This document shows, in pieces, positions 1 through 55,130 of a DNA stretch of 64,000 nt. A program made the position numbers and the translations under genes. A model generated the notes under the pieces. The model was given only the letters and a program-made list of their open reading frames with translations, had not been told where the DNA came from and made no database searches. The stretch is from Medicago truncatula (Eukaryota; Streptophyta; Magnoliopsida; Fabales; Fabaceae). The first letter of the stretch is position 1. Each line of letters opens with the position of its first letter. Location of the stretch: the NCBI RefSeq assembly GCF_003473485.1, contig NC_053042.1, positions 44,107,762 to 44,171,761 of the forward strand. Reading direction: 5' to 3'.

Positions 1-1528
1 TGTGAAGTTGATTTTATTTAAGCATATCAAATGATCAAATCGACAAGAAGCTTTTCCTATCTAAAATTTACACCACGTGTATAAATCACAGCAATACATG
101 CATGTTTAATGAAATTATTGTTCCAGCAAGTAACCTATTATATCTTGCAATCTTGCACCATAAGGAATCTACTTTGCAACACTTCAAATGCCAATTATAA
201 TGAAATTATGTACTATATAGTATAAAACTAACTCAGTGCTTCAAACTAATTAGATTACCTGACCAACAACAGTTAAGGAAGTTCCAACCGGAAGTACCCG
301 TTCAATCCTCTTGAAGCCAAGAATCTGAAAATATTGTTTCATGATTACATAAACAACTCAATGATTCAATTTTTCTTTTATTATTTGCATTAGGGGATAG
401 AAGAGTTTGGATCCAACACTCCCACCTTTATAAGTTGGAAGTGCTCCGATTTTTCATGAAAAGGTATCCGATCTGATTTTTCATGAAAACGTGTCTCCGT
501 CGAATTTTCAAATGTTGAGCTTCCAACAGGTAATTCAAAACCAGTACCACCCCAAGCTCTAACCACAAGCGCACGACCGGTCCCATCATCCTAATTAACA
601 AATGGAATTGAATGACTTGTTATATTAAATATTTATTTGAAGTAAATTTGGTTTTAACTCGGAATATATATTCTGCTAAACAAGCATCCCATCATCCAGA
701 TATAACTAGTAACAACAAAAACTACATCATTAGAGAAACAAAAATAAAACACACACCAGATACCAAAGAGCCTCTTTATGATTGACTGATTTTAACTCAT
801 AACCCGGTGTCCAAGAATCAGCCTCACCGCATTTCTTTGTAACAGGCTCAACAGAACCCTTGCTTTCCTTTTTTCCCTTAATTTCAACATCTCGTTTAAG
901 ATGATGTTCCTCTACCTAATAAAAAAATTGCAAAACAGGTATAATATAGTTGCAAAGGACTAAAATGAGATAAGTAGCATCATTATCATTAAAAAAGAAT
1001 GTTAATCGAAAATTGAAGTTTACATACTCGTTCTTCGACTATTGCACCTCCTAAACCACTCAACTCGCCCGTAATTGGGGCTTCACAAACAACTCTGCCA
1101 GAAATTGTAACAACCCTGGGTAATATATTTGCATCCATCAGATGAGCTGAAAAGTGAAGAATCAATCAAAAACCATCATCAATAATCAAGTAGTACGCTA
1201 TTATATAATAAGAGTGTATCTAACCATAAAAACTTGGAACATGTAGATTCAAGAAGCATAGGGAAAAAAATAATCAATAAATAAAGAAGTTTGAGTTCGT
1301 AGTAATGGACACATGCCTAAGTCCTCGAGCTTGCAGCGGGGAACCGATTGAAGAATTTCGGCATTCCTGTAAAAAATATAGCAATGATTATTATAAAGAA
1401 GAAGAAGAAGAAAACATTATATGGAATGGAATTGCACTAACGAACTACCTGTTAGGGCTTTTGCCGATATAGTAAAGAACAGCAGCAACGGAACAGCAGA
1501 TACCACCATAAACAAGAAAATCCCCCAT
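1..1528 (-). CDS. SP1/SPL1-like protein, copy 1 (3' end outside window)
   Basis: Related to plant SP1/SPL1 and animal MAPL/MUL1, outer-membrane E3 ligases of chloroplasts, mitochondria and peroxisomes. Six exons are visible: 1449-1528, 1317-1366, 1028-1146, 757-915, 426-590 and 259-324. Together they give 213 codons in one open frame. The start is the ATG at 1528, giving MGDFLVYGG and a first membrane segment. Family hallmarks are ISGRVVCEAPI, GAIVEER, DDGTGRALVVRAWGGTGF and KRIERVLPVGT, the intermembrane-space domain of SP1. The exon for the second membrane helix and any RING lies beyond base 1. Intron 2 starts with GC, not GT (donor AG/GCATGT). Exon 5 has an in-frame 27-bp duplication at 448-489. 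Family assignment is firm; whether this copy keeps a RING cannot be seen. Confidence 0.85.
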
Positions 1529-1640
1529 CAAAATTACCTTTGGAGGAAGAAGAGCCTCGCGAAACGTGAAGGTTTTGGGAGGGTTTTGAATTGAATAAAC
1601 CTAAAGATGGGAAGTCGTTAGTGCCGTTTTTTCTTGGCTA
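1529..1640 (-). promoter_or_regulatory. 5' leader of SP1-like copy 1
   Basis: The sequence just upstream of the ATG (GGAAGAAGAGCCTCGCG, GGTTTTGGGAGGGTTTTGAA) closely matches 14940-15000 upstream of copy 2, so it is probably conserved 5' UTR or first leader exon. In copy 2 this leader lies about 1 kb from the ATG because repeats have been inserted. No clear TATA box was assigned. Confidence 0.45.
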
Positions 1641-1835
1641 ATCGTAAGTGCACTTTTCTTTTTGGAGTTATTAGTGCAATTTTCTATTTGGAGTGGATTT
1701 ATGGAGTGTGTTCTTTTTTTTTTTTTTTTTGCCAAAGAGTTTTTTTTTTATTGTAGCCTCGTTTTAATACGCCAATTCATATTTTTTTTCTATACATTTT
1801 CCCTTTCAAATAAATTAGTGTGTTAGTCCTATAAA

Positions 1836-1958
1836 TTATAGCTCAACTGACAAAAATACATAAATTATTAGACCGGACGTCTTGATCGGGGTTCGGACCC
1901 TTGCACCTTCACTTTGTGTGTGTGAGTTTATGATGACGTCATTTCTTCTATGTACCAA
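1836..1958 (+). mobile_element. SINE-like repeat with tRNA-type boxes
   Basis: It has an A-box-like TAGCTCAACTG, a B-box-like GGGTTCGGACCC, then a TGTGTGTGTGAG stretch. The same layout occurs in reverse at 55131-55262, so both look like degenerate members of one tRNA-derived SINE family. No clear target duplication was found here. Confidence 0.5.
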
Positions 1959-2123
1959 AAAAAAAATTAATGTGTTATCTTTTTTTCATAACAAAAAATT
2001 GTTAGTTACTTTTGTAAAAAAAAAATAAAAAATTGTTAGTTACTCTCCCTCCCTCTCTCTAATAAAACCTATTTTTTCACGCATTTTATTGCTCACATAA
2101 CAAACAATTGTCAATAATCTAAA

Positions 2124-2400
2124 GAGCAATGCTAGATATCAAGAAAGATTTTTTCAAGAAAAATTCAAGAATGACATGTCAAAATAATCACCCTTAGATT
2201 TTATTAAGAAATTGTACTGAAATTAATGTTAGCCAATAAAATCTCTGTCGGGCCGGAAATCATGGGGTGGTGGGTGTTATGTATTATTTTTTTTTTTTTT
2301 TATGAAAGGAATAAATGAGACTGAAATCTAAGGGTGATTATTGTGCCATGTCATTCTTGAATATTTCTTGATAAATCATTCTTGATATCTAGCATTTTTC
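2124..2400. mobile_element. Mutator-type MITE with 9-bp TSD
   Basis: A 277-bp non-coding element with inverted ends (GAGCAATGCTAGATATCAAG left; GAAAAATGCTAGATATCAAG on the other strand at right). It is flanked by a perfect 9-bp duplication TAATCTAAA (2115-2123 and 2401-2409). TSD length and TIRs fit a MULE-derived MITE. Confidence 0.85.
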
Positions 2401-2409
2401 TAATCTAAA

Positions 2410-2745
2410 TATCGTACGCATCTTTTTTAATAATTGTAAAACAAAATAAAATTTATTACAACTTTTTTAAAAGTTGTTCTTTTATTTTACACATGAAATA
2501 TTTAAAAGTTGTTCTTTTATTATACTCATCTTATTTATACAATTACAACTTTTCATGGAATATTTAGATTTGTAAATAACAAAAAACAAAGTCTGTTTAA
2601 AAAAAAAAACAAAAACTTGAGCTTTCCAAATATATAGCATTAAATAGCTTTATTGAAAAAGAATAAAAGGATACAATTGACAAATTGTACCTTTAAAAAA
2701 GAATGAAGTCATTAATTCAAATGCATATGATTAAATAACTAAACA
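2410..2745. other. AT-rich spacer, no gene seen
   Basis: Only short direct repeats around AAAAGTTGTTCTTTTAT (about 2470 and 2503) are visible. No coding frame or RNA gene was recognised. Confidence 0.6.
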
Positions 2746-2750
2746 CATTA

Positions 2751-3017
2751 TGTTATGCAATAAACTCAAAACAAAAGATCAAAGAAGAGGAAGGAGAAGA
2801 TGAAAGCACTTTGTATTATTCTCTTCACAAGTGTGTCTTTGCAATACAATATTAGCCCTATTTATAATACACAAGATGAGTAAGTGAGTGATCAAGGCAA
2901 TTAAAGTCCACTAACTATTTCACTTACTAATGGGAGTTATAAGAAGGTGAAAAATGGAAGTTATAATAAGGTGGAAGACTTAAGGATGGACATCCACTAA
3001 GTCATTATTTCATAACA
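2751..3017 (-). repeat. 3' LTR of the 2751-7803 element
   Basis: On the minus strand it starts TGTTATGAAATAATGAC and ends GCATAACA, keeping the TG...CA ends. It aligns over its whole length with 7539-7803. Confidence 0.85.
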
Positions 3018-3030
3018 CTCCCCCTTGGAT
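3018..3030 (-). other. Polypurine tract of the LTR element
   Basis: The minus strand reads CCAAGGGGGAG directly before the LTR's TG. This is the expected site for plus-strand DNA priming. Confidence 0.7.
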
Positions 3031-6000
3031 GTCCATCAGGATATGCTTCATTAAAACCTTATTAGAGAAAAACTCAATGGAAAAAAATTCTAGTGAAGGA
3101 AAAAGAGTACAACATCCTTTTGTGTCATAATCTGCTTCGTTAAAAACCTTATCAGGAAAACCCAATGGGATAAAACCATGGTTAAGGAAAAAAGAGTGCA
3201 GAACACGTATTTGTCTTCCCCTCATAAAGACAACGAAGAAGTCCAAATAATATTTTTATACTAGTTCATTGATGTGGTGTTAGCATTTTCAAACAATTGG
3301 GTGATATTTTTCTTACTCTAAGGTACAAATTGTATGCTTGACTTTAATTGCAGCAATATCTGTATTGACAAAACTAAAACACCACAATATATATAATAAG
3401 CAAAATACATTAGTGTCCTCACTTGACCAATTCAAGTTGTGCATAATTTTTTTGAGGACATGATCCTTACTCACATCAAGTGACATCACAATCATTCTAG
3501 TACATAATCAATTAAATTTGTCCATATATAACCATTTATATAATAACAAATTTTAGAATCTCTTCAGGATTTCTAATATCCTTAAAATGGACAAATGATG
3601 TCATCTTTTCAATAATTTTGATAGTTTGTGTTACGCAAATGAAATCCTTCAGGGAGTTTCATATATCACTATCAAGTGAGTCATATAAATAAATTGTAAC
3701 TCATCTTTCATATAATTTGAGCCTTTCATGTGCTACTGAACTTAATCAAGTATGAAAAAGTTCTTGAATTCACTTCAGGTGAATTTATCCTTAAAGAATA
3801 TATGTCTCTTAAAAATAAATGGTAGATATTTACCTATTCACTTCAGGTGAACATATCAAACTCTACGTATATGTATTTTACCTCTTTTCGCGTGAAAAAT
3901 CATACATAACTAATTAACTTCACATCTTCGAATGTGTGGACTACAGGTCCAAAAGATTCAGTTTTACAAAGCGAATTTGATTTTACTAGAATTGCCTCTT
4001 TTCATCTGCAGATATTTTCTTTTTCTATAATCTTTAATAGACTTTAACTCATGATCCTCAATATTACTTATCACATATAGCGCTATATTATATTCAAAAA
4101 CACATTGACGTTGATTTCATTTCGGTTCTATAGCATTCCATTGAGATCTTTCATTCATGACATAATTTATTAATATTTCATAAGTTTCAAGTACCTAATT
4201 AGTTCTTCTGGAACTGATAAATAAGTTATGTCAGAAAACTCTTTAGAGTTTCTATATCCTTGTTTGGGCTATGTTCCTTTAAGCTCCTTTTCTTAATCAA
4301 GGATTTTTATATTTGGAATCGATTGATCTATCATGCTTCATGCACGATTGAGACTCATTTGCATATTAGATTATACGACAAGGACATCTATTTCATTTGG
4401 AGCATTAGCAGCTGATATTTGATTTATTTACCTTTGCAAATGAGTTATATCTTGAGGATCAAGACGAGACAATAATATTTCCTTTTTAATAATTTATTTA
4501 AACTTCAGGTTCACATTTTCAGCTGCTTATCATCTCCCCCTAATATTGGAAAAAACTAATCCATCAATTGATAATCAGCCTACTGGGCTGTAAATAAGAT
4601 GGCTTAGCACAATTAATGATAGATGGAGATTCATTTCAAATATATTGTCCCAATATTCTTTCAAGATTTATCTTAGTGCATTATATTGGAGCAATTGTGA
4701 TATACACAACACATCCAAAATCCACTTAGATGAGAAATGCCAGGTTGTTAACCTAAAACCAATGATAGATTAAAGGGGGGACATATATATAGTAATGTGT
4801 TGGCTTGATGCAAATCAATATCTCAACATACAAGATTATTGATTCCCAAAATAGTGTTTATATGACAAGCTCTCTAACCAAACTAGAGTTTATAAGGTAT
4901 GGTCTGATAAGTATCAATCATACAATTAACTTTAGACGTCTAAAGAATGGATCTTCAAGTCCATTTTTATGAGCATATGCTATCAGCTGTTCAATTGTAA
5001 TTTGAATGATACTTATCAAATGCTTTCAGAAAATAAACTCTTAGTCAAATTGTTGACCTAATACTCTCACAAATTTGTTTTTTGCATCATAATAGATCCG
5101 GGATAACCCAACCGTCTTGCCAACGATTTGTAAACTTCTGGTTTATAATAATATGTGCTTCTATTGCACTAATTTTCTTCAAAAATGTAATAAATTTCTA
5201 TGTGACCTAGAGGAATATAATGCATTCTCATTGTGTGATTTTATTCCTCGATATATTTTCTCTTTTGGAGCCTTCAATAAATTTTATACTGCCAAATGTA
5301 ATAATATAATTAGTTTATTTGTATCGCCTATCTAAACATTTTTATAGTCTTTTGCATAATAAATCTTTCATTTACAAACAATTATTGTGCTCGTTAGAGA
5401 ATCCAAGTTCTAGGAGCAATGCTCGAAACCTCGAAATAGTTTATGCATACTTTTTAGAAGCAATCAATAATACAAATCTAATTTATACTTATTCTGTCAA
5501 CTAACAAGAATCCCAAGTCAAAACAATATTATTCCTAAACTTAATCTTTTCAAAAGAAGTAATAACATCACATTCACAACCACAATAATTAAAATTTCAT
5601 TAGTAAAGCAACTATATTAGCATTCTACCAAAAAAAAAAATGTGGAGCACAAATTATAAGTATCCAACATGTAAAAGAGATGACGTTACCTCTAATTTCT
5701 TTATGTCTTGCGAGAGCTCATACATAGTAAAGTTCATAGTCATAAATAATAATAATAGAATTTTACCATAAACACAACATCCATTATACGAAACAAATAG
5801 TATGGATCATTAAAAAATAAATAAGGTTTAATTTATCATGTGCGACTTCATCATTTCAATCAATGAATACTCTAATATTCAATCACAAATTTGTTTTATC
5901 TTTCAAAATTTTCTTAATGTTATTTTCTCAATTTTGCTACTCCATAGTACATTCAAGAGGTATAAATAATTTTTTTAATTCTTTTGATAAAATTTATACT

Positions 6001-6084
6001 AAGATCAAATAGATCTTATATATATAAATTGTGGTCAAGAACTCCACAAACCTCTATGCACAATAAGCAAGTAAAATCACAATC

Positions 6085-6755
6085 TTTGCAATCCTTCAAG
6101 GATGATTTAATATTAAATTTTAGTTCTTCACGAGCTATTTCTAAATTTTCATAAACAATTATCAAAAAACTTCTTTATTTGAGCGATCCTTAAAAAAAAT
6201 CTTCGAGAACTTTATTACATTCTTACCGTGTAACTTTCAATACCTTCATTTTAAAAGTTATACAAGGTAAAATAAATATTATTTTCAATCATAAATCTAT
6301 CAACATCAAGGAAGATCATGATTTATGCTATCCTTCGAGGATGCTAGATATTAAATATTTAGTTCTTCCAAGAACTATCTTAAACCTTCATAAACAATGA
6401 TAAAATTTTGATTGTTTGCAATCCTTCAGGGATGCTTTAATCTTAATTTATTTTAAACTCTTTCAGGAATTATATCACACATGATCTTAATAATTGGAGA
6501 ACAATTCTTTTGCACAATCCTTCAGGAATACTCGATATTAAATTATTAAAATTTTTATTGAGAATATCAAACATGCTAATGTGTTAACTAAATAATATTC
6601 AATAAAAAAAAAATTAAAAGTATAAAATTCAGTATATGTTAACAAAGATCTAGTTCTTTAAGAACTTACAACAAACCTCTATCGAGAACAACAAAGAAAA
6701 TTTACGAATGCTTGATATTAAATTATTCGTTCTTTTAGAACTATCTTCTCCTTCA

Positions 6756-6805
<50 letters not shown>

Positions 6806-7095
6806 TTCTTTGAATAATCCTTCCGGGATGCTTTGATATTAAGACAAAACATAGTTCTTCAAGAACTATATCATAAAATCTTCATTTTTTGTATAATCCT
6901 TCTGGAATGTTTCAACGTTAAAGTCAACGTTGATGATGGTTCACAAATAATGATCAAGTAAAATTCATTGTTTGAACAATCCTTCAAGAATTGATAATAT
7001 CAAATATAATTTTTCTGGAACTATATCTCAATTTTTTTAACAACGGTGATAATGAAATTAATTCTTTGTATAATCCATTCAAAATGCTTCAATGT
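6085..7095. repeat. Degenerate tandem array inside the LTR element's leader
   Basis: Roughly eight or nine units of about 90-120 bp alternate two short imperfect palindromes: AATCCTTCAGGAATGCTT-like and AGTTCTTCAAGAACTA-like, joined by ATATTAAA. Examples begin near 6089, 6328, 6420, 6520, 6820, 6895 and 6983. The array lies next to the 5' LTR in the element's own orientation, in the untranslated leader. Confidence 0.65.
6759..6802. repeat. (AT)n microsatellite
   Basis: An uninterrupted AT dinucleotide run of about 44 bases lies inside the degenerate array. Confidence 0.95.
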
Positions 7096-7538
7096 TGAAT
7101 TTTTAGGGTATTCATAAAGAATAGACAAGCATGATATGTTGTATTAGCTAACCAAAATTCTGAATAAGCTTTCTATAAAAAATTCTAAATAATAAGAAAA
7201 ATGATTCTTGCAATGAAATTAATAGATTATGCCATCACTCATTTGGCATAAATTGTCGGTGCTAGTACACTCTAATACTTTCATGTTACGAATATGAATA
7301 TGAATAAATAACTATAAAGAATATGAAAAGAAATACGAATATGTTAACTTTTTCCATAACTTCATACACCTATTCTAGCGCATATTATAATATTAGATAT
7401 CATACAAATAAATTTCAGCCGCACAACGGATCATCATCTAATTGCATTTTTAAAAGTATACCGAGAACATACAACACACTAAACAATAACATGAAAAATA
7501 AGAATCGGTATTACCTCATAGCTTCGTGCCGATAACGT

Positions 7539-7803
7539 ATTATGAAATAATATCAAAACAAAAGATTAAAGAAGAGAAAGGAGAAGATGAAAACACTTTA
7601 TATTATTCTCTTCACAAATGTGTCTTTGCAATACAATATGAACCCTATTTATAGTACACAAGATGAGTAAGTGAGTGATCAAGGCAATTAAGGTCCACTA
7701 ACTATTCACTTACTAATGGGAGTTATAGGAAGGTGGAAAATGGAAGTTATAGTAAGGTGGAAGACTTAAGGATGGACATCCACCGAATCATTATTTCATA
7801 ACA
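7539..7803 (-). repeat. 5' LTR of the 2751-7803 element
   Basis: It aligns end to end with 2751-3017. Its inner terminal CA has mutated to TA. The minus strand contains a TATA-like CTATAAATAGGGTTC. Confidence 0.85.
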
Positions 7804-7808
7804 CATTA

Positions 7809-8519: not shown

Positions 8520-8714
8520 TAAGCTATATACATAAATAACTGTAAACAGCTCCAAACATATCACATTTCCTCTATTTAATCACACTATAAACACATAGGT
8601 CATGTTATCTTTTCGTTACAACAAATAGATCCTCGCCTGTAATCAGACAATTCATAAGTTGTATTATCTCTTGTTATGGCAAACGATTTGAATAGTGGTC
8701 GTATTATCTCATTC
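8520..8714. repeat. Duplicated 3' flank of SP1-like copy 2
   Basis: It resembles 18560-18760 downstream of copy 3 (shared ATTCATAAGTKGTATKATCTC and GGTCGTAYTATCTYAT). The segmental duplication therefore extends well beyond the gene, and the Copia element at 8720 inserted into this flank. Confidence 0.55.
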
Positions 8715-8719
8715 TTACA

Positions 8720-9028
8720 TAGCAAAGAATGAACTATTGGTTCATTCTGTTAGAATTTGCAGAGAGATTTTGATTTAGATTTTGTATTGTCACCAAATGA
8801 ATAAATACAATGAAAGGAGTTAGTTTATATAAGATGCTATTTAGACTAAGCTATTCTAACTGAATGAAAAACTACTTTACTAATTACAGATCAGTTAGTT
8901 GGTTGCAAGGGAAACTATACAGTGCGACACTCCTTAGGCTAAGCTATTGTGTATAGTACGAGTGAGGATCCTCTAGGTGTAGTGCATGCTAAATAGAGTG
9001 AGAGAGTTATGATTGCTTTAATATTCCA
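8720..9028 (-). repeat. LTR A of the Copia remnant
   Basis: It matches LTR B on both sides of the nested solo LTR, for example TTCTGTTAGAATTTGCAGAG and GAGTGAGGATCCTC. Confidence 0.8.
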
Positions 9029-9551
9029 CCGCAATCTCAACTGGGTGATGTATCACACGGAATGAGCTTGGCGCACAAGTCATCAAAGTGTGAAGGAGAT
9101 AGTGGTTTAGGCATAGTGTCTGCATACTGCAGATGACTAGGAACATGAGACACTACAAGTTACCTTTGAATCACCTTTTCTTGAACAAAAAATAAGTCAA
9201 GCTCTCTATATGTTTAGTTTTGGCATGGAGAACTGGGTTGTGGGAGAGCGCAATAGTACTCATATTGCGACAAAGGATAGTAGGAGATGCAAAAGGAAAA
9301 CTGAGCTCAGTTGCAACAATTAGATCCAACACAGTTCAGAGGTCGCCGATGCCATACTTCGGTATTCACATTCTGTGCTGAAGTGAGACGCCACATACTA
9401 CTTTTTATGTCACCAAGAGACTAGATTGGGGCCAAGATAGATACATGCCAATCTGCATCATAATATGCTTTGAGGAACGCATGGTAAGTTGAGATAGGTT
9501 TGATGCAGCCCAATGTGCATCAGTAGGTTAAGACATGATTGTCAAATTTTA

Positions 9552-9962
9552 TTAACCGAAAAGCAAATATTTGGTCTTGTGATGGTTGCATACTGAAGAG
9601 CACCAACCACAAACAGATAATGAGTGGGATATGGATATGAGGATTCTTGCAAGAATATCTCCTATGTATTTACTTTGAGACAAGAGGAGAGATCCATCTG
9701 AGTGAGATTTCACTTCAATGCCTAGGAAGTAATACAATGTGCCAAGATCCTTAAGAGAGAAAACTGAGTTGAGCTGGGAAACAAGGGAAGGAATAAGTGA
9801 TGGATTATCGTCCGTGACAATAATATCATCCACAATTGGTATGAATTTGGGAATAAGTGTATATCTTATCCAAGATTTGCCACAATTGTTTGCATTGAAT
9901 GACATTTGTAACCATTTCCTTCGTCGTGTTTGATTGAAGCTATGAGAGGAGAGTTTGATCAC
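9552..9962 (-). pseudogene. Copia reverse-transcriptase fragment
   Basis: The minus-strand frame contains VDDIIVTDDNPSLI, SVFSLKDLGTLYYFLGIEV and GSLLLSQSKYIGDIL, which are diagnostic of the Copia RVT_2 domain after the YVDD box. The catalytic motif has decayed to IVDD. The frame degenerates after DILARI. It lies inside the 8720-11382 element and is not functional. Confidence 0.85.
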
Positions 9963-10377
9963 AAACTTTCCATAGTTTGAATTCAGGAAGAAACGAGATT
10001 CACGTTGCTATCTTCTAAAGACAAAAATTTGAAGGAATTTGTGGATTAACAAGGTGATTATAAAGCTTATGAGACTTTACCACCGGTTCAACTTGTTGAC
10101 ACTAAGGCAGATAGTTCTGCCGCTTTTGTGTGTCAAGATTCTAAGATAATGCAGAAAAATGGTTGTGACTCGAACAACATCCGAATGACAGAAATGGCAT
10201 CGCCGGAGAAGAAGATGGACTAGCATCCGATGCTGGCATAATCTCCATGGATCCAGAAGGGCTTTGAGATACCATATTAAGGAATGAACTCTTGGCTCAT
10301 TCTGTTAGAATTTGCAGAGAGCATCTGTTTTACATTTTGTATTTTCACTGAATGAATGATAACAATGAAATGAATTC

Positions 10378-11169
10378 TGTTGAGATTTGTCTTCAAATTT
10401 GTGGTCTGGAAGAATAGGGAAATCGTGACACGAATTTGGCATCGTGACACGATTTAGTGGTGCCGTGAGCTAGGTTGCAGGGTGCCAAATCGTGACACGA
10501 TTGTGGTAAATCGTGACACGATTGTGCAAACTTGCTCGTTAAGTTTCCATGATAAGGACTGGTCATACCTTGGGACGGATGCACCAATCGTGACACGATC
10601 AGGAAATCGTGACACGATTTTATCAGTGGAAGGCATGTATTTAAGTGTTCTTGTGCAGATTTGAAGAGAGAGTTGGAAGAGAGAGAAACTTGGGAAATCA
10701 AAGGGAGCAACTCTAGGGTTTAGGGTTCTTTGATTAGAGTATCTCTTGGGTTGAAAACATGGGAAACACCTTGTAGAGAGAAAATCATTGAGTGTCTTGG
10801 TGAGATTGGGAAAAGGGTAGAAATTAGGGTTAGTTCATTGTGAACTTGTCTAATCTAATTTCTTGTAACCTTTTGTATCCCTTTTGTAAGAACTCTTTGA
10901 TAGTGGATTGGAGAGTACAATCTCTCCTCCAGAGTAGGTCAAGTTTGGACCGAACTGGGTGAACAATCTCTTGGTGTCTTTGTTTTCTTCTTCCCTCTCC
11001 TTTTATCTTGTGATTGTGTATTGTGTTTCTCACTTGTTTCCTAGATTAGATCTAGGTGGTGTTTTGTTGATTATTGCTTGCACACACACTTTGTTTTGGT
11101 GGTTACCACTCTCCTTTGCTCCACACATCATAGTTTGCATTGGTGTGGTTTCGTCCGGGATTCACAACA
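10378..11169 (+). mobile_element. Solo LTR, 792 bp, TSD AATTC
   Basis: It starts TGTTGAGATTTG and ends GGATTCACAACA, with 5-bp duplications AATTC at 10373-10377 and 11170-11174. No internal retrotransposon sequence is present, so this is a solo LTR left by LTR-LTR recombination. A TATA-like GTATTTAAG lies near 10638, about 20 bp downstream of a cluster of dyad repeats. Confidence 0.9.
10421..10619. repeat. Six copies of the dyad AATCGTGACACGATT
   Basis: Near-identical 14-15-bp units lie at 10421, 10441, 10488, 10509, 10586 and 10605, with arms ATCGTG/CACGAT around a central A. They precede the TATA-like box of the solo LTR, the position of U3 enhancer elements. Function is inferred. Confidence 0.8.
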
Positions 11170-11387
11170 AATTCCTTTATATAGGATCATCTTTAAAGTA
11201 AGCTATTGTAACTGAATCTCAAACTAGTTTAACTAACTGAGACAGTTCAGTTAAGTCGTTTCACAGGGAAACTATACAATATGATACTCCTAATGCTAAA
11301 CTAGCGTGTACAGTATGAGTGAGGATCCTCCAAGTGTCGTGGATGCTAAATACAATAAAAGCTATGCTTGATTTATTTAACATTACA

Positions 11388-11926
11388 GCAAACATTCTCC
11401 ACAAAAACTATATAATCTCTGTCACGTCAAACGACACACCTCAAGAGTCTATGTCTTATCAACTTTTCATAATTCTAATCAATGTCATGAGAATTTGTTC
11501 TCATGCAACAGTTGCTCAAATAATCATACAATCCACATCACTGTTAAAAAATTATACAATTATTATTGATCATTGTCATAATTAAAACTATTCTCTCTAT
11601 TTATTATTTTTTATACAATTTTCTTACTTTCTTAGTTTTATTTATTTTAAGATATTCTCTCATGTATATATATTTATTTATACATATTCATTATGCAATG
11701 TTATTCATTCTAAACTATTCTACTAACTATCTGGAACAAGATTTGAAATCCTAGCTACTCGTCGTTAGTTCAGTTGCCCCAGTTTATTTTTCAATTTAGT
11801 TGTTGATTGTCCAAGGGGAAAGCCTTAATTTTCAAGTAACATGCTTGGATAAGTGAAAAGAATTTAATAAGATTTTGTTTGTCACCACCACTAATCAGAA
11901 GAATATCCCAGTATACAGTACCTTTT
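11388..11926. other. 3' flank of SP1-like copy 2
   Basis: It is collinear with 18870-19258 downstream of copy 3 (for example AATCATACAATCCACATCA and GAACAAGATTTGAAATCCTA). It contains no RING-encoding exon (no CVICLE-like motif) and no separate gene. Confidence 0.65.
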
Positions 11927-13970
11927 TCACAGTTCACTGCAACGTCTTCTACGATGTAACAAATAGTAGATGCGGGCAGCTATTTGAAAAGCACCAAGCA
12001 CTATCAGGCCCGTAGAAGTATACTCACACGACCTAAAAATAGATTTTAGTCAATAAAACAATGTTGTAGACCAAAACACAAAAAACGACTATAAAGTAAA
12101 GCAACCTAGCATAATTCACAAATTTTGCAGCGTGTTCATCAATCGCTTTGCTAGAGACATAAAATGGCCCTTTGGGAGGTCGCTGAATTCGAATGGTCCC
12201 GTCATCATCTTTAGAGGCCTGATCATACAGTTAAAAAATAATTCTTGTAAAAAGACAGGTTTTAAACAGCAAAAGATTAATATTAGAGGATAATTTGGAT
12301 ACACTAGGTGTAAAACCTTTTACATTGACAACCAATCACAACTCATATACGATGAAAGTCAAACTTTTTTAGTGATTGAACAGTTGTGATTGACTGTTAT
12401 GTAATAAATATTTTTACCCGAGTTCATAAAATGTAAAGAGGCACTAAGTACTCATATTCTATTATAATATTGTATTTAGCGAGTGTAATCCATTTCATTT
12501 TTTAGAAATAGAAATGGTTAAGATTAAAGTTTGAGTACTCATAATGAAGTTAATTTTACTTAAGTGTATCAAATGACAAAATCTACAAGAAGCTTTTACA
12601 CCCCGGGTATAAAATCACAGCAACGCATGTTTAATGAAATTATTGTTCCAATAAGTAACCTGTTATATCTTGTATTAGGAATCTACTTCTCAACGCTCCA
12701 AATACCAATTATAATGAGATTTTATAATCTATAGAGTATAGAACTATCTATATTCTTGAAACTAATATATTACATGACCTTCTTAAAAAAAAATAATATA
12801 TATTACCTGACCAACAACAGTTAAAGCAGTTCCAACCGGAAGTACTCGTTCAATCCTCTTCAATCCCTTGACCTGAAAGTATGATTTCATGACAAAATAA
12901 ACACCTTAGTGCTTTAATTTTTTATATTGTTTGCAGGAGAGGTGGGTAGTAGAGATTGGATCTAACACTCCCACCTTTATAAGTTGAATATGATCCGATG
13001 TTTCATTTATTTGTGTCTGCTCCAACTTTTCAAATGTTGAGGTTCCAGCAGGTAATACAAAATCAGTGCCACCACGAGCTCCAACCACAAGCACACGACC
13101 AGTCCCATCATCCTAATTAACACATGGAATTGAATGACTTGTTATATTACATATTTATTTGAGAAAGAAGTGTCACATCATCCTAATTACTAGTAAAACC
13201 ATAAATTTCATCATTAGAGGAACAAAGAAAACCAACACACCAGATACCAAGGAACCTCTTTACGATTGGATGATAATAACGAACTATGGTTTTTCCAGTA
13301 AATATCTATTTTTCCATTCTGTGTTTGTGTAGCAGCATCCTTGCATTGTCCAATAGAAATATCCCGTTGAAGATAATGTCGCTCTTCCTAAAAATAAAAT
13401 TGCAAAACAGGTATAGTATAGTTGCAAAGGGATAAAATGAGTAAGCGATATCATTATAAAAGAAGAGATAATTCATGCTAGTCAGAAATTGAAGTCTACA
13501 TACTCTTTCTTCAACTATTACACCTCTTAAACCAGTTATCTCGCACTTAATTGGGGTTTCAGAAACAACGTTGCCAGAAATTGCAACAAGCAATGGTAAC
13601 CTTTCAACATCCAGTAGTTGTTCTGAAAAGTGAAGAATCCCAACCATGATCAGAAACCACAGCAGCACAAATTGCTTCATCAAGAATCAAGTAGTACACT
13701 ATAATATAATGAAAGAGTATATCATTTTCTTATAAAAGATACTTGCCTAACTCCTTCAGCTCATTGAACCGGGGAATGGATTCAAGAGTTTCCACATGCC
13801 TGTACAATAATTAAAATAATGATTACAATAACAAAGAAGAAAACGTTATATGGAAAGTAACGGCACTAGCTAATGACATTGCAGTGATACCTGACATTGT
13901 CTCTGTTGAAAAAGTTAACAGCAGCAGCAGCCAAACAGTAAGAAACGCCTCCCGCAAAAAATAAATCCAT
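11927..13970 (-). CDS. SP1/SPL1-like protein, copy 2, RING-less
   Basis: Eight exons (13891-13970, 13747-13799, 13504-13622, 13241-13387, 12975-13112, 12807-12872, 12106-12218, 11927-12032) join to 822 bp, a 273-aa frame without stops. The ATG at 13970 is collinear with copies 1 and 3. Seen in order: N-terminal membrane segment (LFFAGGVSYCLAAAAV), LLVAISGNVVSETPIKCEI, LVVGARGGTDFVLPAG, KRIERVLPVGT, IRIQRPPKGPFYVSSKAID, second membrane segment (GLIVLGAFQIAARIYYLL), and a stop right after HRRRRCSEL. Arabidopsis SP1 continues past this basic stretch into a cytosolic RING finger; here it is absent. The protein could insert in the membrane and bind partners but probably lacks ligase activity. Intron 2 is GC-AG (donor AG/GCAAGT). 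Confidence 0.85.
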
Positions 13971-14057
13971 CAAAACCACCTTAACAACAAGAATACTAAC
14001 CAATTAGAGCTAATTCATAGTTGTTATACGATGTCTAATCTTTAACTCACTCACAAT

Positions 14058-14189
14058 CTATGAAGCACCGACACGACATCGACACATATGACTACACTGA
14101 ATTATGCGATTTTCTCAAATTATTAGCGGTGTTGGTGTGTCAGTGTCCATCTCGTGCCTGGTTTCCATGTTCGTATCCGTGCTTCATAG
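14058..14189. mobile_element. hAT-type MITE, 132 bp
   Basis: An 11-bp perfect inverted repeat (CTATGAAGCAC...GTGCTTCATAG) is flanked by a perfect 8-bp duplication CTCACAAT (14050-14057, 14190-14197), the hAT length. A degenerate relative lies in an intron near 46200-46310. Confidence 0.85.
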
Positions 14190-14252
14190 CTCACAATTAA
14201 CCAATCACTAAAATAACCTTATTAAATAAAAGTGTTAAAATATGCTGCATAT

Positions 14253-14270
14253 TTCTAGAATTTTCTAGAA
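14253..14270. promoter_or_regulatory. Perfect heat-shock element
   Basis: TTCTAGAATTTTCTAGAA is four alternating TTC/GAA units with exact 2-bp spacing, the ideal binding site for trimeric heat-shock factors. The element is palindromic, so it can act in either direction. Confidence 0.85.
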
Positions 14271-14402
14271 TGTATTAGTAGTTTATAAAATGATTTACAT
14301 GCCTAGATTTCTCTAGAATAGTTTAGTATGTTTTAGAATTAATTAATACTACACATGTAGTAGGAAATTTCATGAACAATCTAGAAAGAACTATCTCCAC
14401 AC

Positions 14403-14410
14403 TATAAATA
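14403..14410 (+). promoter_or_regulatory. TATA box of the solo LTR
   Basis: TATAAATA in the context CACTATAAATAGGC, about 130 bp downstream of the heat-shock element. Confidence 0.7.
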
Positions 14411-14576
14411 GGCAAGATGTACTCATTTGTAATCAATCCAATTTGGAGCAATACAATCTATTCTTGCTCCAAGTCCTCACACTACTTACTACTATATTTC
14501 AACTATCAACCAAAGCCTTCTTCACTATCCAACTACACTCTAAACTATCACTACTGCCCAAAATACTAACAAAAAG

Positions 14577-15010
14577 GAACATAACAACATCGAAAAGAAC
14601 TAATCATAATCAAAATGGCTTGCTTGCAGAATTAAAGAAAGATAATAGAAACAAAAAAAGCAACATAAAATGTAGAAGAAAAAAATCAACAGCATAAACA
14701 TGGAAATAATATCGCAAATACCTAGAGTTCCAAAATGCGACAGGGAAACAACAAATTTCAGATAAAGAGATGAGATGAGTCGCAAATCAATAATGAAAGC
14801 AAATTAAACATAACAGTAAAAAAGATAAAGATAAACAATAACAAAAAAAAAAAAAACGTGAAAGAGAATTACACAGCGTAGAGGAAAAGGAAATTGGCTA
14901 ATCGATCAAGAAATCAGGGAGGAGACAAGACAAAATGCGGAGAAGAAGAAGAAGAAGAGTCGCGCCTGAAGGCTTTGCTAGGGTTTTGGATTGAATAGTC
15001 TAATATAGTA
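14577..15010 (-). other. Region 5' of copy 2, with displaced leader
   Basis: Purine-rich, low-complexity sequence to about 14870. Then 14930-15000 matches the leader of copy 1 (GAAGAAGAAGAAGAGTCGCG, CTAGGGTTTTGGATTGAAT). Transcription of copy 2 probably starts here, with an unresolved leader intron spanning the MITE and solo LTR. Confidence 0.45.
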
Positions 15011-15160
15011 ATACTTCTTGTCACGCAAGAAAGAAGGAATCTATCAAATTAGTTCAGATTTTGTGCTATGGTTTGTTTGGATGAAGTGTTTAGGAGTGAA
15101 TGACTTGCTTTTATTTTGTAAAGGAAAATGTTAAGCAGGGCCTTTGGGGTGAGGCACTAG

Positions 15161-15674
15161 TTAGAGCATCCATAATGAAGAGATATTTATTTTTGGATTT
15201 TTCAATAGATCTCACGCGTACACATCTCTTGTTTATTTTTGAATGGGTTTTGTTATCGAATGTCACCCGGACACTCTTTAAGCATGCTAAATAAAGTCAT
15301 TATTCTTTCAAAATTAAAAAGTTTTCAATTTCCAATGCACTGAGTACACAAACTTTTATAAAAAGTTACTATTTAAAGTTCTTAACTAGTGTCCGGGGGC
15401 ACTAGTTAATATTTCCCAACCTAATAAGCACTAAATCCCTCCAACCCAGATCTCACACAAAGTTATTAAATGGGACCCGCTAATCAACTATCAATAATTT
15501 TATCATTACATTTTAATTTTTTAATATTAAAAAGGTGTGGGTCCCGCTTAAAGTTGTGGGTCTTAAGTAAGACTCCGGGTCTTATAAGACCCTGAAAAAT
15601 ATTCTCCCCGATGAGATACCTAATACGTACCGGGTCTTAAATGTTTAAGACTCTTCCGTTGAAGATGGTCTTAA
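15161..15674. mobile_element. MITE-like element with a smaller repeat inside
   Basis: The ends are imperfect inverted repeats (AGAGCATCCATAATGAAGAG and, on the other strand, AGACCATCTTCAACGGAAGAG). A relative lies at 55587-56001. A second inverted-repeat unit (CACCCGGACACTCTTTAAG / CTTAACTAGTGTCCGGG) sits at about 15260-15410. Boundaries are approximate. Confidence 0.55.
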
Positions 15675-16640
15675 GGAATAAAAAATGATTATATAATAAA
15701 TGATTTTAGAAAATGAGTTTTAGATGACCCTTTTTTAAATTAGGACATTGTGAAATGAGTTTTAGAAAATTGAATTAACAAAATCATAAATGATTATATA
15801 ATACTTCAAAAACACTTAATTTATTTAAAAAAATATATATTTTACATAGTTCGTAGTTTAAAAAATAAAAGTGAGCTCTCCCCTCCTAAATCCTCCATCC
15901 AAACACACCTTAAGTGATTAATTTTTTTTTAGGTCTTGCTAACAAGTGCCCCAATGGTATTGTCAACCAATGAAAAGAAACTTTGTCTTAAAATACAAAT
16001 CAAACACATGTAAAAATGATAACTACATAATTTTCAGTGTAAAAACTACTATTATTGCATATTTAAACAATATCCCAAAAACAATTGTTAGTATTTTTTC
16101 ATTTAATTATGATAAAACTCTTATCATGTGGTAAATCAGTTTTATCAATTGTAGTAAGTAAAATTGTTAAATGAAGTGAAAGTCAATAAACAATGGTATA
16201 TTAGAAGGGAAATGCTAACCGGTGTTTCAATGGCACTGGTTATAAATACAACAAAAGGAGATTATATTGTTATTAGCGTTCGTCTTTCTGCTCTTTTTAT
16301 TGCGCTAACACGTGTAAATTAAGAATGGTATTTTATATGAAATTTTGATTAAAATTATAAATAAAAATATTTATGACTTTCAAATTGTAACAAACCTAAC
16401 AAGTAACAAAAATGTTTATCTTTTTAAACGACAACAATAATTTGGCAAGTATAATATAAAGTTCCCCTAAAAAAGTATAATACAGTTCTTGTCTTTTTTA
16501 ATAATAAATATAGGAAAATTGTTTGAGGACATAATTGAAATAATATAAAAGTCAACCCAAAATTCCAATATCCCAATATAACATAAATACAGAAAAGTCA
16601 GTCCAAAAAATCACCAATCTTGGAGATAAAGACAAATTTT
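15675..16640. other. AT-rich spacer with MITE relics
   Basis: Contains short elements of the AAGTGCCCCAATGG / ACCGGTGTTTCAATGGCACT type near 15945 and 16215. No gene was seen. Confidence 0.45.
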
Positions 16641-16649
16641 AGTAGATTT

Positions 16650-16765
16650 CCATGAGTTTAGCTCACTTGGTAAGGGATAATATATATATATATATATATA
16701 GGGGTCGGAGTTCGAACCTCGGACATCACACTTATTCACTTTTAAGATGAATTTCTCTAACCGCT
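16650..16765 (+). mobile_element. SINE-like repeat with pol III boxes
   Basis: A-box-like TAGCTCACTTGGTAAGG (16660), a (TA)n stretch, B-box-like GAGTTCGAACCTC, and a tail reading CTAACCGCTAGACTACTT. This is the usual look of a tRNA-derived legume repeat. Ends are approximate. Confidence 0.55.
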
Positions 16766-16880
16766 AGACTACTTATTAAAAAAAAAAAAATAAATAATAT
16801 TTTCAAACATATATCTTTTCTAAATCTAAACAAGAAAAACATACATAGTTTGTGGGCGAACACTATAAAGCTAAATCTTT

Positions 16881-17059
16881 TTTTTTTTTTTTTGCTTTTG
16901 CACTGGTTTCCGACCCACCAAGGATGAGCGACTAATCCGGCTCGTGTGTAGAGGCATGCATACTGGCCAACCGTTGTTCCCCCTGGAAATCGAACCCGGT
17001 ATTCCCCGAATACGTCCTTGGAAAGAGCTCCTTGCCACTCGAGCCCAAGCAACTTGGTT
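16881..17059 (-). mobile_element. SINE with 19-bp target duplication
   Basis: It is flanked by perfect 19-bp repeats ACTATAAAGCTAAATCTTT (16862-16880, 17060-17078). On the minus strand it begins with a tRNA-like A box (GCTCGAGTGGCAAGG), has a B box (GGGTTCGATTTCC), and ends in a run of A. These are the hallmarks of LINE-mediated SINE insertion. Confidence 0.9.
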
Positions 17060-17296
17060 ACTATAAAGCTAAATCTTTAAGCAAGGCTACTCGAGGGCAA
17101 AAACACACCAACATAAATGTTAAGCATGGGATCTTTTATTTGAATACCCATGGAGCTTCTAAGGGGAGAGAAGATAAAACAAGTTGTGGAGTTTATCTGT
17201 GCAGATTTTTTTGGCTAAACTCGGCAATTCTTCAACTCACAACTCATGAGATTCTTATCCATTTATTTCCGCCTTCCAGAGCTATGGATAAGAAGC

Positions 17297-17390
17297 TTCA
17301 TGAGCCCAAGTGGAGCAGCTCTATGAGCCAGGGCGGGGAGAGATTCATGAGCCCAAGTGGAGCAGCTCCATGAGTCAGGGTGGGAAGAGA
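17297..17390. repeat. 47-bp tandem duplication
   Basis: Two adjacent 47-bp units starting TTCATGAGCCCAAGTGGAGC differ at a few positions. They make an open frame here that I do not regard as a gene. Confidence 0.9.
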
Positions 17391-18110
17391 TTGATGGATA
17401 ATAAGTTTATGAATTGAAGAAACATCGAGTTTGACCAAAATTTTTGCACAAATATTTCAAGGGTTATGATAACCGGTGCCTTTAGGCACTAGTTAAGAAA
17501 ATAAAAAATGGTAAGTTTGCATTGAATTCAATAATTATTTAACTTTTCAAAAGTCAAATCTATCACTTTTCACTATTTCCCAATACAACATTTTTAAATT
17601 TATCCTCTTAACCAATGCACATATTTATGAAATCTTGGTGTTGGTTTTTGGAAAAAATAAAAGGTTATTGAAATACTATTAAATTCTAAATTAATTGAAG
17701 GTATTTTTTTAAAAATGTAAATTAATCCACGGAAATTAGTATAGGGGAGAAGCAAATTTAAAAACTTGAAAGAAACACACTCCAAGGTTCTAAATCAACA
17801 CCATCAGACCAACACAAGTGGGCTTGAAAGTATTTTAAAAAATGATATCATTAAATAAAATAAACTTCATTAATTAAAAGTTGTAAATATTTTAAACCAT
17901 AAAGTTAGATTTTTGTTTATATGTACATATTACTAAAATAAAGTAGCTAAAGAAAATAGGACAGTTTTCTCTATCTTTCTGATGCCACGTGTCAGTGACG
18001 TATCAATATCCATAATCAGTACTACAACGTATAGTCCAAAAGATAGCACCTCCAACCTGGTGTCAAAAAAAATTCAAGTCCGATCCTCTATGAAAAAAAA
18101 ATTCCAAAAT
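17391..18110. other. Spacer with MITE relic
   Basis: From about 17470, ACCGGTGCCTTTAGGCACTAG begins a MITE-like stretch related to pieces near 15400, 16215 and 23410. No gene was seen. Confidence 0.45.
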
Positions 18111-18140
18111 GACCCACTTTTTTTTTGTCCCTTTCCTCCA

Positions 18141-18243
18141 TTCCCGCCATTTGAAACGGCGGGAATGAGCCGCCGTCTGACACATGTCCCATCAGGATTG
18201 GCCACCTTTTTTTTTTTTCATTACCGCCATTTCAAATGGCGGG
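18141..18243. repeat. Two CCGCCATTT palindromes
   Basis: TTCCCGCCATTTGAAACGG... at 18141-18165 and CCGCCATTTCAAATGGCGG at 18224-18242 are near-perfect palindromes about 60 bp apart, each able to form a GC-capped hairpin in very AT-rich surroundings. Probably part of a dispersed repeat. Confidence 0.7.
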
Positions 18244-18259
18244 ACTGATTTTTTTTTTT

Positions 18260-19258
18260 TTTTTTTTTTTGTTTTTTTTTGCAACATTTGTTTACATTAA
18301 AACACAACAAATAATAATGATAAATAAAAATATAGTAATGATAATTATATCAACATCAACTGTCATTCTTTGTCTATGAATTTGATGAATATTTTTTTTG
18401 AAGTTTTTGATTATTTTTTTTTATAAAAAGGATAACTATGTTGTTATTTTATAACATAAAAGACTAAATCGTTACAAAAAAAAAAGATTAAGGACGAAAA
18501 TGTTACCTAAAATTAAGTTAAGGGACTAATTATGTAATTTTGCCTTAAATTAAATATATCATTAAACAACACACATATAGAAACATTGTGAGCACTTACC
18601 ACATGAGATACATTATCTCTTAATTGTAGCTTATGATGTTCAATATGTACAGAACATAATTCATAAGTGGTATGATCTCTTCGTAATGGTAAACAGTTTA
18701 GACATGGGTCGTACTATCTTATCCTTACGGCAGACAGTTTCTACATGAATTGTAATATCTCTTTGTTGCATCAAACAAAACACCTATAGAAATTCTATAT
18801 TCGCTTTCCGCATAAGATACATTATCTCTTCGTTGCAGTGTAAGATGTTTGTTCATAGAATACATTTTCTTCTCAACTTTTCATAATTCCGATCAATGTC
18901 GTGTGAATTTGATCTCGTGCAACACTTTCTCAAAATAATCATACAATCCACATCATTGTAGAAAGATTATACAACAAAATTATTATTGATTGTAGTCATA
19001 ATTAAAACTATTCTCTCTATATATTATTTTCTATTGTTGATACCGTTTCCTTAGCATCTTATTTTTCTTTATTTTGAGATATTCTCTCTTGTATCTATAT
19101 TTGCTTTGGAATGTACATCTCTTGTGTAATGCAAGTTAATCGTTCTAAACTATTCAACTTGGAATTTACAGCAAGATTTGAAATCCTAGCTCCTAGTCTT
19201 TTTGGTTCAGCTGCAATAGACCATTGTCAACAAGGCTAGCACTAGTTTATTTTTCAAT
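18260..19258. other. 3' flank of SP1-like copy 3
   Basis: From about 18560 it is collinear with 8520-8714 plus 11388-11926 downstream of copy 2, including short imperfect repeats of TATCTCTTCGTT. No RING exon was found. Confidence 0.6.
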
Positions 19259-21591
19259 TTAATTATTTGGAAGTGTCCAAGAGAAAAGCCCTGTTTTCCA
19301 AGAGACATGCTTGGCTGGTTGAAAATCATTCAATAAGATTATGTTTGTAACCACTATTGACATGAGAAGAATAACCCAATAGATTGTACCTTTTTCACAT
19401 TTCAGTGCAACGCCGCCTTCCAAGATAATAACAGTGGATGCGGCTAGTAAACAAGCACCAATCATTGTCAGGGCCACAGAATTATCCTTACAATACCTAA
19501 TAAGAAATTTTAGTCAATAAAAAATTCTTGTAGACCAAAAGACACAAAACCAACTATAAAGTAAAGCAACCTTGCATAATCCACGAAATTTGCAATGTTT
19601 TCATCAATCGTTTTGCCAGAGACATAAAATGGCCCTTTAAGAGGTCGTTGAATTCGAACGGTCCCATCATCATCTTTAGAGGCCTGATCATACAATTTTA
19701 AAATTATTATTGTAAAAGAAGGGGGTTTGAAACAGCAAATGATTAGTATTATTAACCACAGTTGATAAAATGTAAATAGAATGCAGTCTTTCTTTTGAAC
19801 CAAAACGTCTATAATAATAATATAATTTTCATATGTTGTAACTCTAATGCATTTCAGTTTTTAGAAATAGCAATGGTACCATCCGAGTTTGAATACTCAT
19901 AATGGGGAGTTTTAAGGAAATGATTGGTCCACACGTAACTTGTTATATTGCACCTTTAGCAATCTACTTTGCAACACTCTAAATACCAATTGTCATAAAA
20001 TTATGTAATATGTAGAGAATAAATCTAACTATATTCTTGAAAGTAATTAAATTACCTCACCAACAACATTCAAGGAAGTTCCAACCAGAAGTACCCGTTC
20101 AATTCTCTTGAGTCCAAGGATCTGAAAGTATGATTTCATGTCAAAATAAGCATGATCAGTGCTTTTATTGTTTGTTGTTTGCAGGGAACAGAAGAGATTG
20201 GACCTAACAATCTCACCTTTTCATCTTCGAGATAGCTCGATATTTCAGACGGCTCAAATTTTGATCCTTCAGCAGGTAATACAAAATCAGTGGCACCACA
20301 TGCACACGATCAGTCCCGTCATCCTTAAAAAAATTAAATGAAGGATTTGTTATCATAATTTTTTTTATCATTATTTATTTGAAGTGAATTTTGTTATTAC
20401 TAATTTACTATCATTTCCTATTTTTGGCTCAAGGAGGGACAGAAATTGAATTTAAGAAAATAACAACAAAAATTGCATTAGAGAAACAGAAACAAACTAC
20501 ACACCAGGTACCATGGAACCTCTTTTGGAATTGATGATATGAGCCTAGAATGCTGTGTCCATGAAAAAACATCATTCTTGTCAAAAAAGGAATCAGCATA
20601 ACTGCATGTCTTTTTGTGCTCAATAGCACACTCGCATTTCTCTTTTCGCTCAACCTTTTTAAGATAATGTTCCTCTACCTAAAAAGAAAATTAGAAAACA
20701 GGTGCAGTATTAGTTGCAAAGGGCTAAAATGAAAGTGATTATTCATGCTCGTCAGAAATTGAAGTCTACATACACTTTCGTCAACTATTACACCACTTAA
20801 ACCGCTAATCTTGCACTTGATTGGGGTTTCAAAAGCAACTTCGCCAGAAATTGAAACAACCATAGGTAATTTTTCTGCATCCAACAGTTGTGCTGAAAAG
20901 TGAAGAATCCCAAGCGTGATCAGAAACCACAGCAGCCCAAATTGCAACATCAATAATCAATATATGTCTTTAGCCTGGTTGAAAGCCAATAAGGTTGTTT
21001 TTAGGTTTGGTTCTGAGATGTGGTGCTCAAGTTCCTTACAATGTTTGGGCATCACGTAATGGTTTGTTTGGTTGTTTGTTTGACTCTTTATTTGTAGAGT
21101 AGTTCTTTTGGCACACCTTGTGCTAGAAGAGTTGCTTTTGGTGATTAATATAATTCCATTTTTGATTGTTCAAAAAAAAAAAGTAGTAAGAAAGACGATG
21201 AAAGTTCATCTGAACTCTCCTTCATCACAATAGAAACTTACATCAGTTATGTTACTGCTAATTGGAATATATATCAAAGGGGTCATTGTCTTATCTTAGG
21301 GGCACTGTTTTTGCAATAAATTAATAGTAGTATAGAAAGTTTGAATCCCTTAAAAAAGAAACATACATACCTAGGTCCTTCAGCTGATTGACCCGGGTAA
21401 CAGATTTAAGAATTTCTGCATCCCTGTACAAAAATAACAACAATAATTATTATAAAACATTAGAGATGGAATGGCAGAAAGTAACAGCAGATTGTGGAGA
21501 TAAGTACATACTTGTCACTGGTTCTGGCGGAAACGTAAGCAGCAGCAGCAGCGAAGCAAGTAATGCCGCCAAAAACAAGGAAAGGCTCCAT
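19259..21591 (-). pseudogene. SP1/SPL1-like copy 3, frameshifted and RING-less
   Basis: Eight exons match copy 2: 21512-21591, 21371-21423, 20774-20892, 20505-20678, 20217-20323, 20056-20121, 19571-19683 and 19259-19496. The N-terminal half is the closest of the three to SP1 (DAEILKSVTRVNQLKDLAQ). In exon 5, 13 bp present in copies 1 and 2 are missing between two CCAC repeats (around 20293). The frame then shifts and meets a TGA in exon 6. The exon total of 950 bp is not a multiple of three. The last exon has 72 codons from its first ATG, adds new hydrophobic sequence (IYWVILLMSIVVTNIILL), and has no RING. Intron 2 has a normal GT donor. Probably a recent pseudogene, unless alternative splicing skips the lesion. 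Confidence 0.8.
20961..21182 (+). mobile_element. LINE 3'-end insertion in intron 2 of copy 3
   Basis: Compared with copies 1 and 2, about 222 bp interrupt CATCAATAATCAA/GTAGTA. The insert ends TTTTTGATTGTTC plus poly-A and resembles a plant L1 3' UTR, truncated at its 5' end as is usual. Confidence 0.7.

Positions 21592-53728: not shown

Positions 53729-55130
<1,402 letters not shown>

Follow-up and report, generated by a model that had tools for sequence, protein, structure and literature searches.

A candidate subfamily of RING-less SP1-like genes in Medicago, Trifolium and Vicia

The GIDE domain family (PF12483) includes the human protein MUL1 (also called MAPL or GIDE), which has a RING and resides in the mitochondrial outer membrane. 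SP1 (SUPPRESSOR OF PPI1 LOCUS 1, At1g63900; P0008 in Medicago) is the plant protein of this type to which the genes described here are compared. These genes lie on the minus strand of a 64-kb stretch of Medicago truncatula DNA (contig NC_053042.1, positions 44,107,762 to 44,171,761; the window) as three copies (copies 1–3) in which no RING is found. Together with annotated proteins of M. truncatula, Trifolium and Vicia villosa they very probably make up a RING-less subfamily of common origin, inherited as such, judging from sequence comparison. The best overall reading, to which about an even chance is given, is that the subfamily consists of fast-evolving, RING-less SP1 paralogues (MUL1/MAPL-type) that act like Arabidopsis SPL1, as inhibitors of SP1 without ubiquitin ligase (E3) activity.

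SP1 binds targets in the translocon at the outer envelope membrane of chloroplasts (TOC) through its intermembrane-space domain, while its RING is placed on the cytosol side (available text of PMC7054747 and PMC11410653). The closest described parallel to the legume genes is Arabidopsis SPL1. According to the available text of PMC11913770, in vitro assays of SPL1 gave no E3 activity, and the protein interacts with both SP1 and TOC proteins, opposes SP1, and cancels the effect of SP1 overexpression; a dominant-negative mode of action is one possibility suggested by its authors. The same text describes SPL1 as confined to Brassicaceae and notes that other proteins may regulate the pathway in other plants.

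Similar to SP1, the legume proteins have two predicted helices around a GIDE intermembrane-space domain. They differ from SP1 in the missing RING, in a longer exon-4 loop, and in longer tree branches, and E3 activity is not expected of them because there is no RING. Like SPL1, they are fast-evolving SP1 duplicates within one plant family; in contrast to SPL1, a Brassicaceae protein with an intact-looking RING, the legume genes have no RING at all, and a likeness of function would be one of analogy. Literature searches for RING-less SP1 proteins in legumes, conducted mostly outside the subscription literature, found no such paper among the records listed. What is new here is the set of predicted RING-less SP1 relatives: a second Medicago gene and members from Trifolium and from Vicia villosa.

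Gene structure and the missing RING

Exons were rebuilt on the minus strand from splice sites and reading phase (Table 1). The original prediction, made from the letters of the window, described three adjacent SP1-type genes on the minus strand. All three are confirmed by the agreement of their exon phases and splice sites; a copia-type remnant lies between copies. Spliced copy 2 is identical to the annotated M. truncatula protein P0001 over all 273 amino acids in a protein search, and this letter-for-letter match excludes a chance origin of the gene. After P0001, the next best matches are two short RING-less Trifolium proteins, followed by RING-bearing legume SP1 proteins that are 51–55% identical to copy 2 among the matches listed. 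Copies 1 and 2 have exons of equal length apart from exons 2, 4, and 5, whose lengths differ by multiples of three. The intron 2 donor is GC at the same place in copy 1 (1316) and copy 2 (13746) and GT in copy 3; the gene model of P0001 uses the GC-AG intron 2 of copy 2, a sign that transcript or protein data may have informed this model.

The membrane and intermembrane-space parts ascribed to these genes in the original prediction are recovered in copy 2. With a curated cut-off of 23.6 bits, the GIDE domain is detected in spliced copy 2 (E 6.9e-32, 110.6 bits) as well as in what is visible of copy 1 (E 2.1e-12, 47.2 bits). Hydropathy peaks of 1.70 and 1.53 in copy 2 predict two membrane helices flanking this domain. 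The AlphaFold model of P0001 (mean pLDDT, the predicted local confidence, 87) places helices at residues 2–34 and 227–272 around a strand-rich domain; it was built on 68 sequences, of which 62 have a RING, and the other four models have pLDDT values of 55–79. Judged by its model, copy 2 thus appears to have kept the intermembrane-space domain along with the two predicted membrane helices. The best fold matches of the modelled GIDE domain are OB-folds (RPA, LysRS) at E 0.003 with TM-scores near 0.23. As no PDB match fell below E 0.001, structural relatives of this domain were not used; among solved structures, sequence comparison returned designed 'Pizza' proteins and one ETR1 chain alone, at E 0.008 or worse.

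The RING is absent by several measures. Pfam detects no RING family at E values up to 1 in copy 2 or in the visible part of copy 1, and the C3HC4 RING pattern is lacking in copy 2 and five annotated relatives, the 3' end of copy 1 lying left of the window. A hidden RING exon downstream was also considered. The ends that follow the second helix and include the RING (89 amino acids each) of three canonical SP1 proteins were compared by tblastn with the 64 kb in all six reading frames; at the head of the match list, which is ordered by E-value, nothing RING-like better than E 0.15 was found, and this top match lies far from the genes. The hidden exon was consequently rejected, in agreement with the earlier claim that no RING exon was seen downstream. 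In a control with canonical Medicago SP1, tblastn found copy 3 exon 7 at E 1.6e-12; the better conserved GIDE exons are clear, while the fast exons 1, 2, and 8 are weak or missed, indicating that a badly decayed RING remnant could escape this search.

The 3' flanks of copies 2 and 3 align over 522 columns with 73.0% identity (E 2e-88), and the DNA around the exon 8 TGA is common to both copies. This shared, RING-free flank of about 0.5 kb suggests that the RING was gone, or far off, before the two copies separated. Two causes of RING loss were rejected. Insertion of the copia-type element downstream of copy 2 (about 8824–11375) would leave unexplained that copy 3 is also without a RING. The exon 8 stop, for which copies 2 and 3 share the surrounding DNA, fails as a cause, since the proteins of other species end elsewhere. 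The original prediction placed the stop of both copies at or near the second helix. This is correct for copy 2, whose TGA follows the helix and stands five bases ahead of the exon 8 donor. In copy 3 the frame is already broken in exon 5, and exon 8 (107 nt versus 111 in copy 2) is in a different frame; copy 3 is currently a pseudogene, beyond mere truncation.

Members and origin of the subfamily

Members were gathered by three protein searches, using copy 2, a profile of five RING-less proteins, and copy 1, of which the best 120 of 355, 463, and 128 matches, respectively, were considered. At least seven annotated proteins are of the RING-less type: P0001 and P0114 of M. truncatula, P0002 of Trifolium pratense, P0003 of Trifolium repens, P0148 of Trifolium subterraneum, and P0057 and P0122 of Vicia villosa. 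With copies 1 and 3 they make nine sequences. P0114 is the product of a second M. truncatula gene outside the window, as its best tblastn piece lies in copy 2 and is 80% identical, and the P0148 model (222 amino acids) stops before the last exons, leaving its 3' end unseen. With P0148 left out, Pfam detects GIDE in all of P0001 and its five relatives and a RING in none (6/6 and 0/6), while GIDE and RING occur together in 4/4 RING-bearing controls. The protein searches returned RING-less relatives in three genera, which points to a conserved subfamily, not one broken gene. The RING-less case is stronger than the original prediction had it, since the form is common to several genera.

Trees were built on the shared domain, without Arabidopsis SP1, SPL1, and SPL2. 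The split between RING-less and RING-bearing proteins has support values of 100/100 with 8 versus 23 sequences and 99.9/100 with 9 versus 26 sequences, and the RING-less members sit on longer branches than canonical SP1. Approximately unbiased (AU) tests reject a separate truncation in each genus from the local SP1 (p 7e-6), a separate origin of the Vicia members (p 1e-4), and a shared branch for P0114 and Medicago SP1 (p 4e-4); the best tree already satisfies a fourth constraint, which hence tests nothing. When members were placed singly among 24 RING-bearing proteins, 3/9 fell beside all SP1 proteins of the Medicago-Trifolium-Cicer-Lathyrus group (support 76, 98, and 56), and none of the nine joined the SP1 of its own genus alone. 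The latter result places the duplication in legume history before the split of Medicago, Trifolium, and Vicia.

Evidence independent of tree branch lengths comes from an insertion in exon 4. The exon-4 loop spans 36–62 residues in 9/9 subfamily sequences, whereas in 167 of the 168 other proteins it does not exceed 28; the sole exception has a loop of 33, which resembles a different, upstream addition. Among the sequences fetched, the insertion was not seen outside Medicago, Trifolium, and Vicia. Loop length also separates the subfamily from other proteins with an incomplete RING. The four RING positions surveyed are present in 139/177 sequences and absent in 38, the latter comprising the nine subfamily sequences (among them copy 1 and P0148, on account of their unseen ends) and 29 proteins with loops of at most 28 residues. 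These 29, out of the 168 outside the subfamily, are RING-lacking SP1 isoforms or short models of other plants without at least one of the four positions, and 14 of them start the RING (first two Cys) and then end. Their genes probably keep the RING, because several are named isoforms or run into other sequence.

A further observation concerns clover. P0170 and P0171 of Trifolium repens are a strongly diverged SP1-like pair that has kept the RING, on a branch of 0.58. The pair falls outside the RING-less clade, indicating that SP1 was duplicated more than once in clover.

Constraint, decay and possible function

The origin of the subfamily as a putative SP1 inhibitor can be outlined as follows. 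A legume SP1 gene would have duplicated and then gained the insertion in exon 4. The RING exons were most likely lost once, before Medicago, Trifolium, and Vicia split, and tandem multiplication of the RING-less copies would have followed. The protein may reside, like SP1, in the plastid outer envelope (or in another organelle) and may bind SP1 targets or SP1 itself through its intermembrane-space domain. As it would recruit no ubiquitin-conjugating enzyme (E2), TOC proteins would be ubiquitinated less by SP1, the effect that SPL1 has in Arabidopsis. The dominant-negative idea for RING-less proteins is reasonable by the precedent of SPL1. The parts of this proposal differ in strength. That copy 2 makes a working protein is an evenly balanced proposition; that this protein inhibits SP1-type ligases is a tentative suggestion by analogy, and somewhat doubtful. 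A more specific form of the proposal is rather unlikely: the members would be clover-clade decoys of SP1, in competition either for TOC targets or for SP1 itself, a brake on chloroplast-associated protein degradation that evolved apart from Brassicaceae SPL1, tandemly amplified and rapidly diversifying, with positive selection perhaps acting on the first helix and the exon-4 loop.

Signs of constraint come from the reading frames. Between copies 1 and 2, 4/4 coding indels are multiples of three, compared with 3/14 in introns (p 0.011); in the pairs with broken copy 3, 5/6 and 4/6 coding indels are in frame. The simulated odds that a neutral sequence shows no stop are about 0.03–0.05 for copy 2 and about 0.002–0.005 for copies 1 and 2 together, at 0.10–0.12 changes per site (half the intron distance); at 0.08 the value for both copies is 0.013, and as the exons were picked with the frame in view, this test is somewhat favoured. 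Furthermore, sites that are invariant in canonical SP1 differ less in 28/28 pairs of eight subfamily sequences, with p below 0.05 in 17, although the pairs depend on one another and the lower difference is also seen in broken copy 3. The kept frames and in-frame indels argue that copies 1 and 2 are not simply free of selection.

A number of results weigh against a working inhibitor. A ratio of nonsynonymous to synonymous substitution rates (dN/dS) near 1, combined with no expression, had been set in the original prediction as a refuting condition; between copies dN/dS is near 1, and this half of the condition went against the prediction. Over the whole codon alignment, three methods give 1.07–1.22 for copies 1 and 2, 0.89–0.94 for copies 1 and 3, and 0.68–0.86 for copies 2 and 3. 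In the better aligned core, where values range over 0.67–1.39, the same pairs give 1.39 (95% interval 0.96–2.21), 0.81 (0.47–1.26), and 0.77 (0.49–1.21), and every bootstrap interval includes 1. Changes private to one copy are evenly spread across codon positions in all three copies (p 0.62–0.75). For copies 1 and 2, divergence is faster in exons than in introns (0.275 versus 0.195; 95% interval of the ratio 1.14–1.77); for copies 2 and 3 the two are alike (0.250 versus 0.230; 0.92–1.29), and for copies 1 and 3 exons are at most slightly slower (0.255 versus 0.306; 0.69–1.00). The site-class comparison is significant in 0/7 pairs with copy 1, a protein identical to copy 1 is not found among the best 120 of 128 matches (top match 48%), and the cluster of P0001 comes from one contig without an 'lgn' source, unlike Medicago SP1 P0008. 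The single placements of the other 6/9 members are scattered elsewhere among legume SP1 proteins with support of 20–90; consequently the exact origin is not fixed, and long branches may attract. The SPL1 parallel is itself imperfect. RING-mutant SP1 (C330A) does not inhibit SP1 in vitro, unlike SPL1, and the SPL1 RING looks normal (available text of PMC11913770); both results weigh directly against the notion that a missing RING is enough to inhibit.

Many of these results also fit a reading of the copies as decaying duplicates, an explanation that comes somewhat short of an even chance. A truncated SP1 duplicate would have arisen once and been useful never or briefly, its copies would stand at different stages of loss, and the annotated proteins would be gene-finder models of pseudogenes that are not yet broken. 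Decay is compatible with the common origin. The dN/dS values, the even codon-position counts, and exons about as variable as introns all fit it, as do the broken frame of copy 3, the C-termini of the relatives, which differ from each other, and the short P0148 model. Against it stand the frame statistics of copies 1 and 2, the lower difference at canonical-invariant sites, and the grouping of the window copies with relatives from four further species whose frames are open. Taken as a whole, the sequences are read as a fast-evolving coding family under at most modest constraint, with some copies decaying.

Alternatively, the members may function in a new role that has nothing to do with SP1 inhibition (for instance as a scaffold in the envelope, as a partner that broadens the target range of SP1, or as a factor of another organelle), with the first helix and the exon-4 loop under diversifying selection. 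The retained frame and the pace of the exons relative to introns between copies 1 and 2, which is highest in exon 1 (0.42) and exon 4 (0.37) and lowest in exon 6 (0.15), are consistent with such a role. However, of the three pairs only copies 1 and 2 show the excess of exons over introns, their dN/dS interval extends to both sides of 1, and both partner and location are purely hypothetical, making this role improbable. An assembly or annotation artefact, with RING exons elsewhere or missed, might be imagined because the 3' end of copy 1 lies beyond the window, but is highly improbable given the tblastn result, the RING-free flank shared by copies 2 and 3, and the RING-less relatives annotated in other species.

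Neighbouring features and implications

The other features of the window are listed with the SP1-like copies in Table 1. In the copia-type remnant downstream of copy 2, two same-strand stretches of about 200 bp (11375–11176 and 9020–8824) are 77% alike and are perhaps long terminal repeats. In each of the two adjoining glutathione S-transferase genes, two open stretches carry the N-terminal and the C-terminal domain. The open stretch with a PB1 domain may be the front of a Raf-like kinase.

Table 1. Coordinates of the SP1-like copies and of other features in the 64-kb window
Feature	Coordinates	Strand	Remarks
Copy 1, exons 1–6 open	259..1528	minus	213 aa visible; continues left of base 1
Copy 1 exons	1449-1528, 1317-1366, 1028-1146, 757-915, 426-590, 259-324	minus	
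Copy 2, intact RING-less SP1-like gene, 8 exons	11922..13970	minus	273 aa
Copy 2 exons 1–4	13891-13970, 13747-13799, 13504-13622, 13241-13387	minus	
Copy 2 exons 5–8	12975-13112, 12807-12872, 12106-12218, 11922-12032	minus	
Copy 2 exon 4, subfamily-specific insertion	13241..13387	minus	Loop of 43 residues versus 26 in 160/168 other proteins
Copy 2 stop TGA in exon 8	11927..11929	minus	3' of second membrane helix; ..LLHRRRRCSEL*
Copy 2 3' flank, RING-free	11454..11921	minus	Homologous to copy 3 3' flank
Copy 3, pseudogene	19390..21591	minus	Exons 1–8 recognisable, frame broken
Copy 3 exons 1–4	21512-21591, 21371-21423, 20774-20892, 20505-20678	minus	
Copy 3 exons 5–8	20217-20323, 20056-20121, 19571-19683, 19390-19496	minus	
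Copy 3 exon 5, frame break	20217..20323	minus	107 nt versus 138 in copy 2 and 165 in copy 1
Copy 3 3' flank, RING-free	18868..19389	minus	Homologous to copy 2 3' flank
Copia-type retrotransposon remnant	8824-11375		Downstream of copy 2; reverse transcriptase fragment 9552-10007 (minus)
Open stretch with PB1 domain	37362-39731	minus	789 aa
DUF4487 (PF14868) gene	50051-52984	plus	Over two open stretches
Two adjoining glutathione S-transferase genes	53729-54622, 58217-59840	minus	Tandem pair
Copia-type gag/pol start, open	62039-63547	plus	Retrotran_gag_2, Pol_BBD

The RING-less SP1 subfamily is a gene class invisible to the published SP1 family tree, which, according to the available text, excluded RING-truncated sequences (PMC11913770). 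Whether its members work or not, the automatic name 'RING-type E3 ubiquitin transferase' on the cluster of P0001 misleads. If they are non-functional, they offer a clean example of the slow decay of a truncated ligase duplicate. If they work, E3-dead SP1 paralogues would have arisen twice as brakes on plastid protein import.

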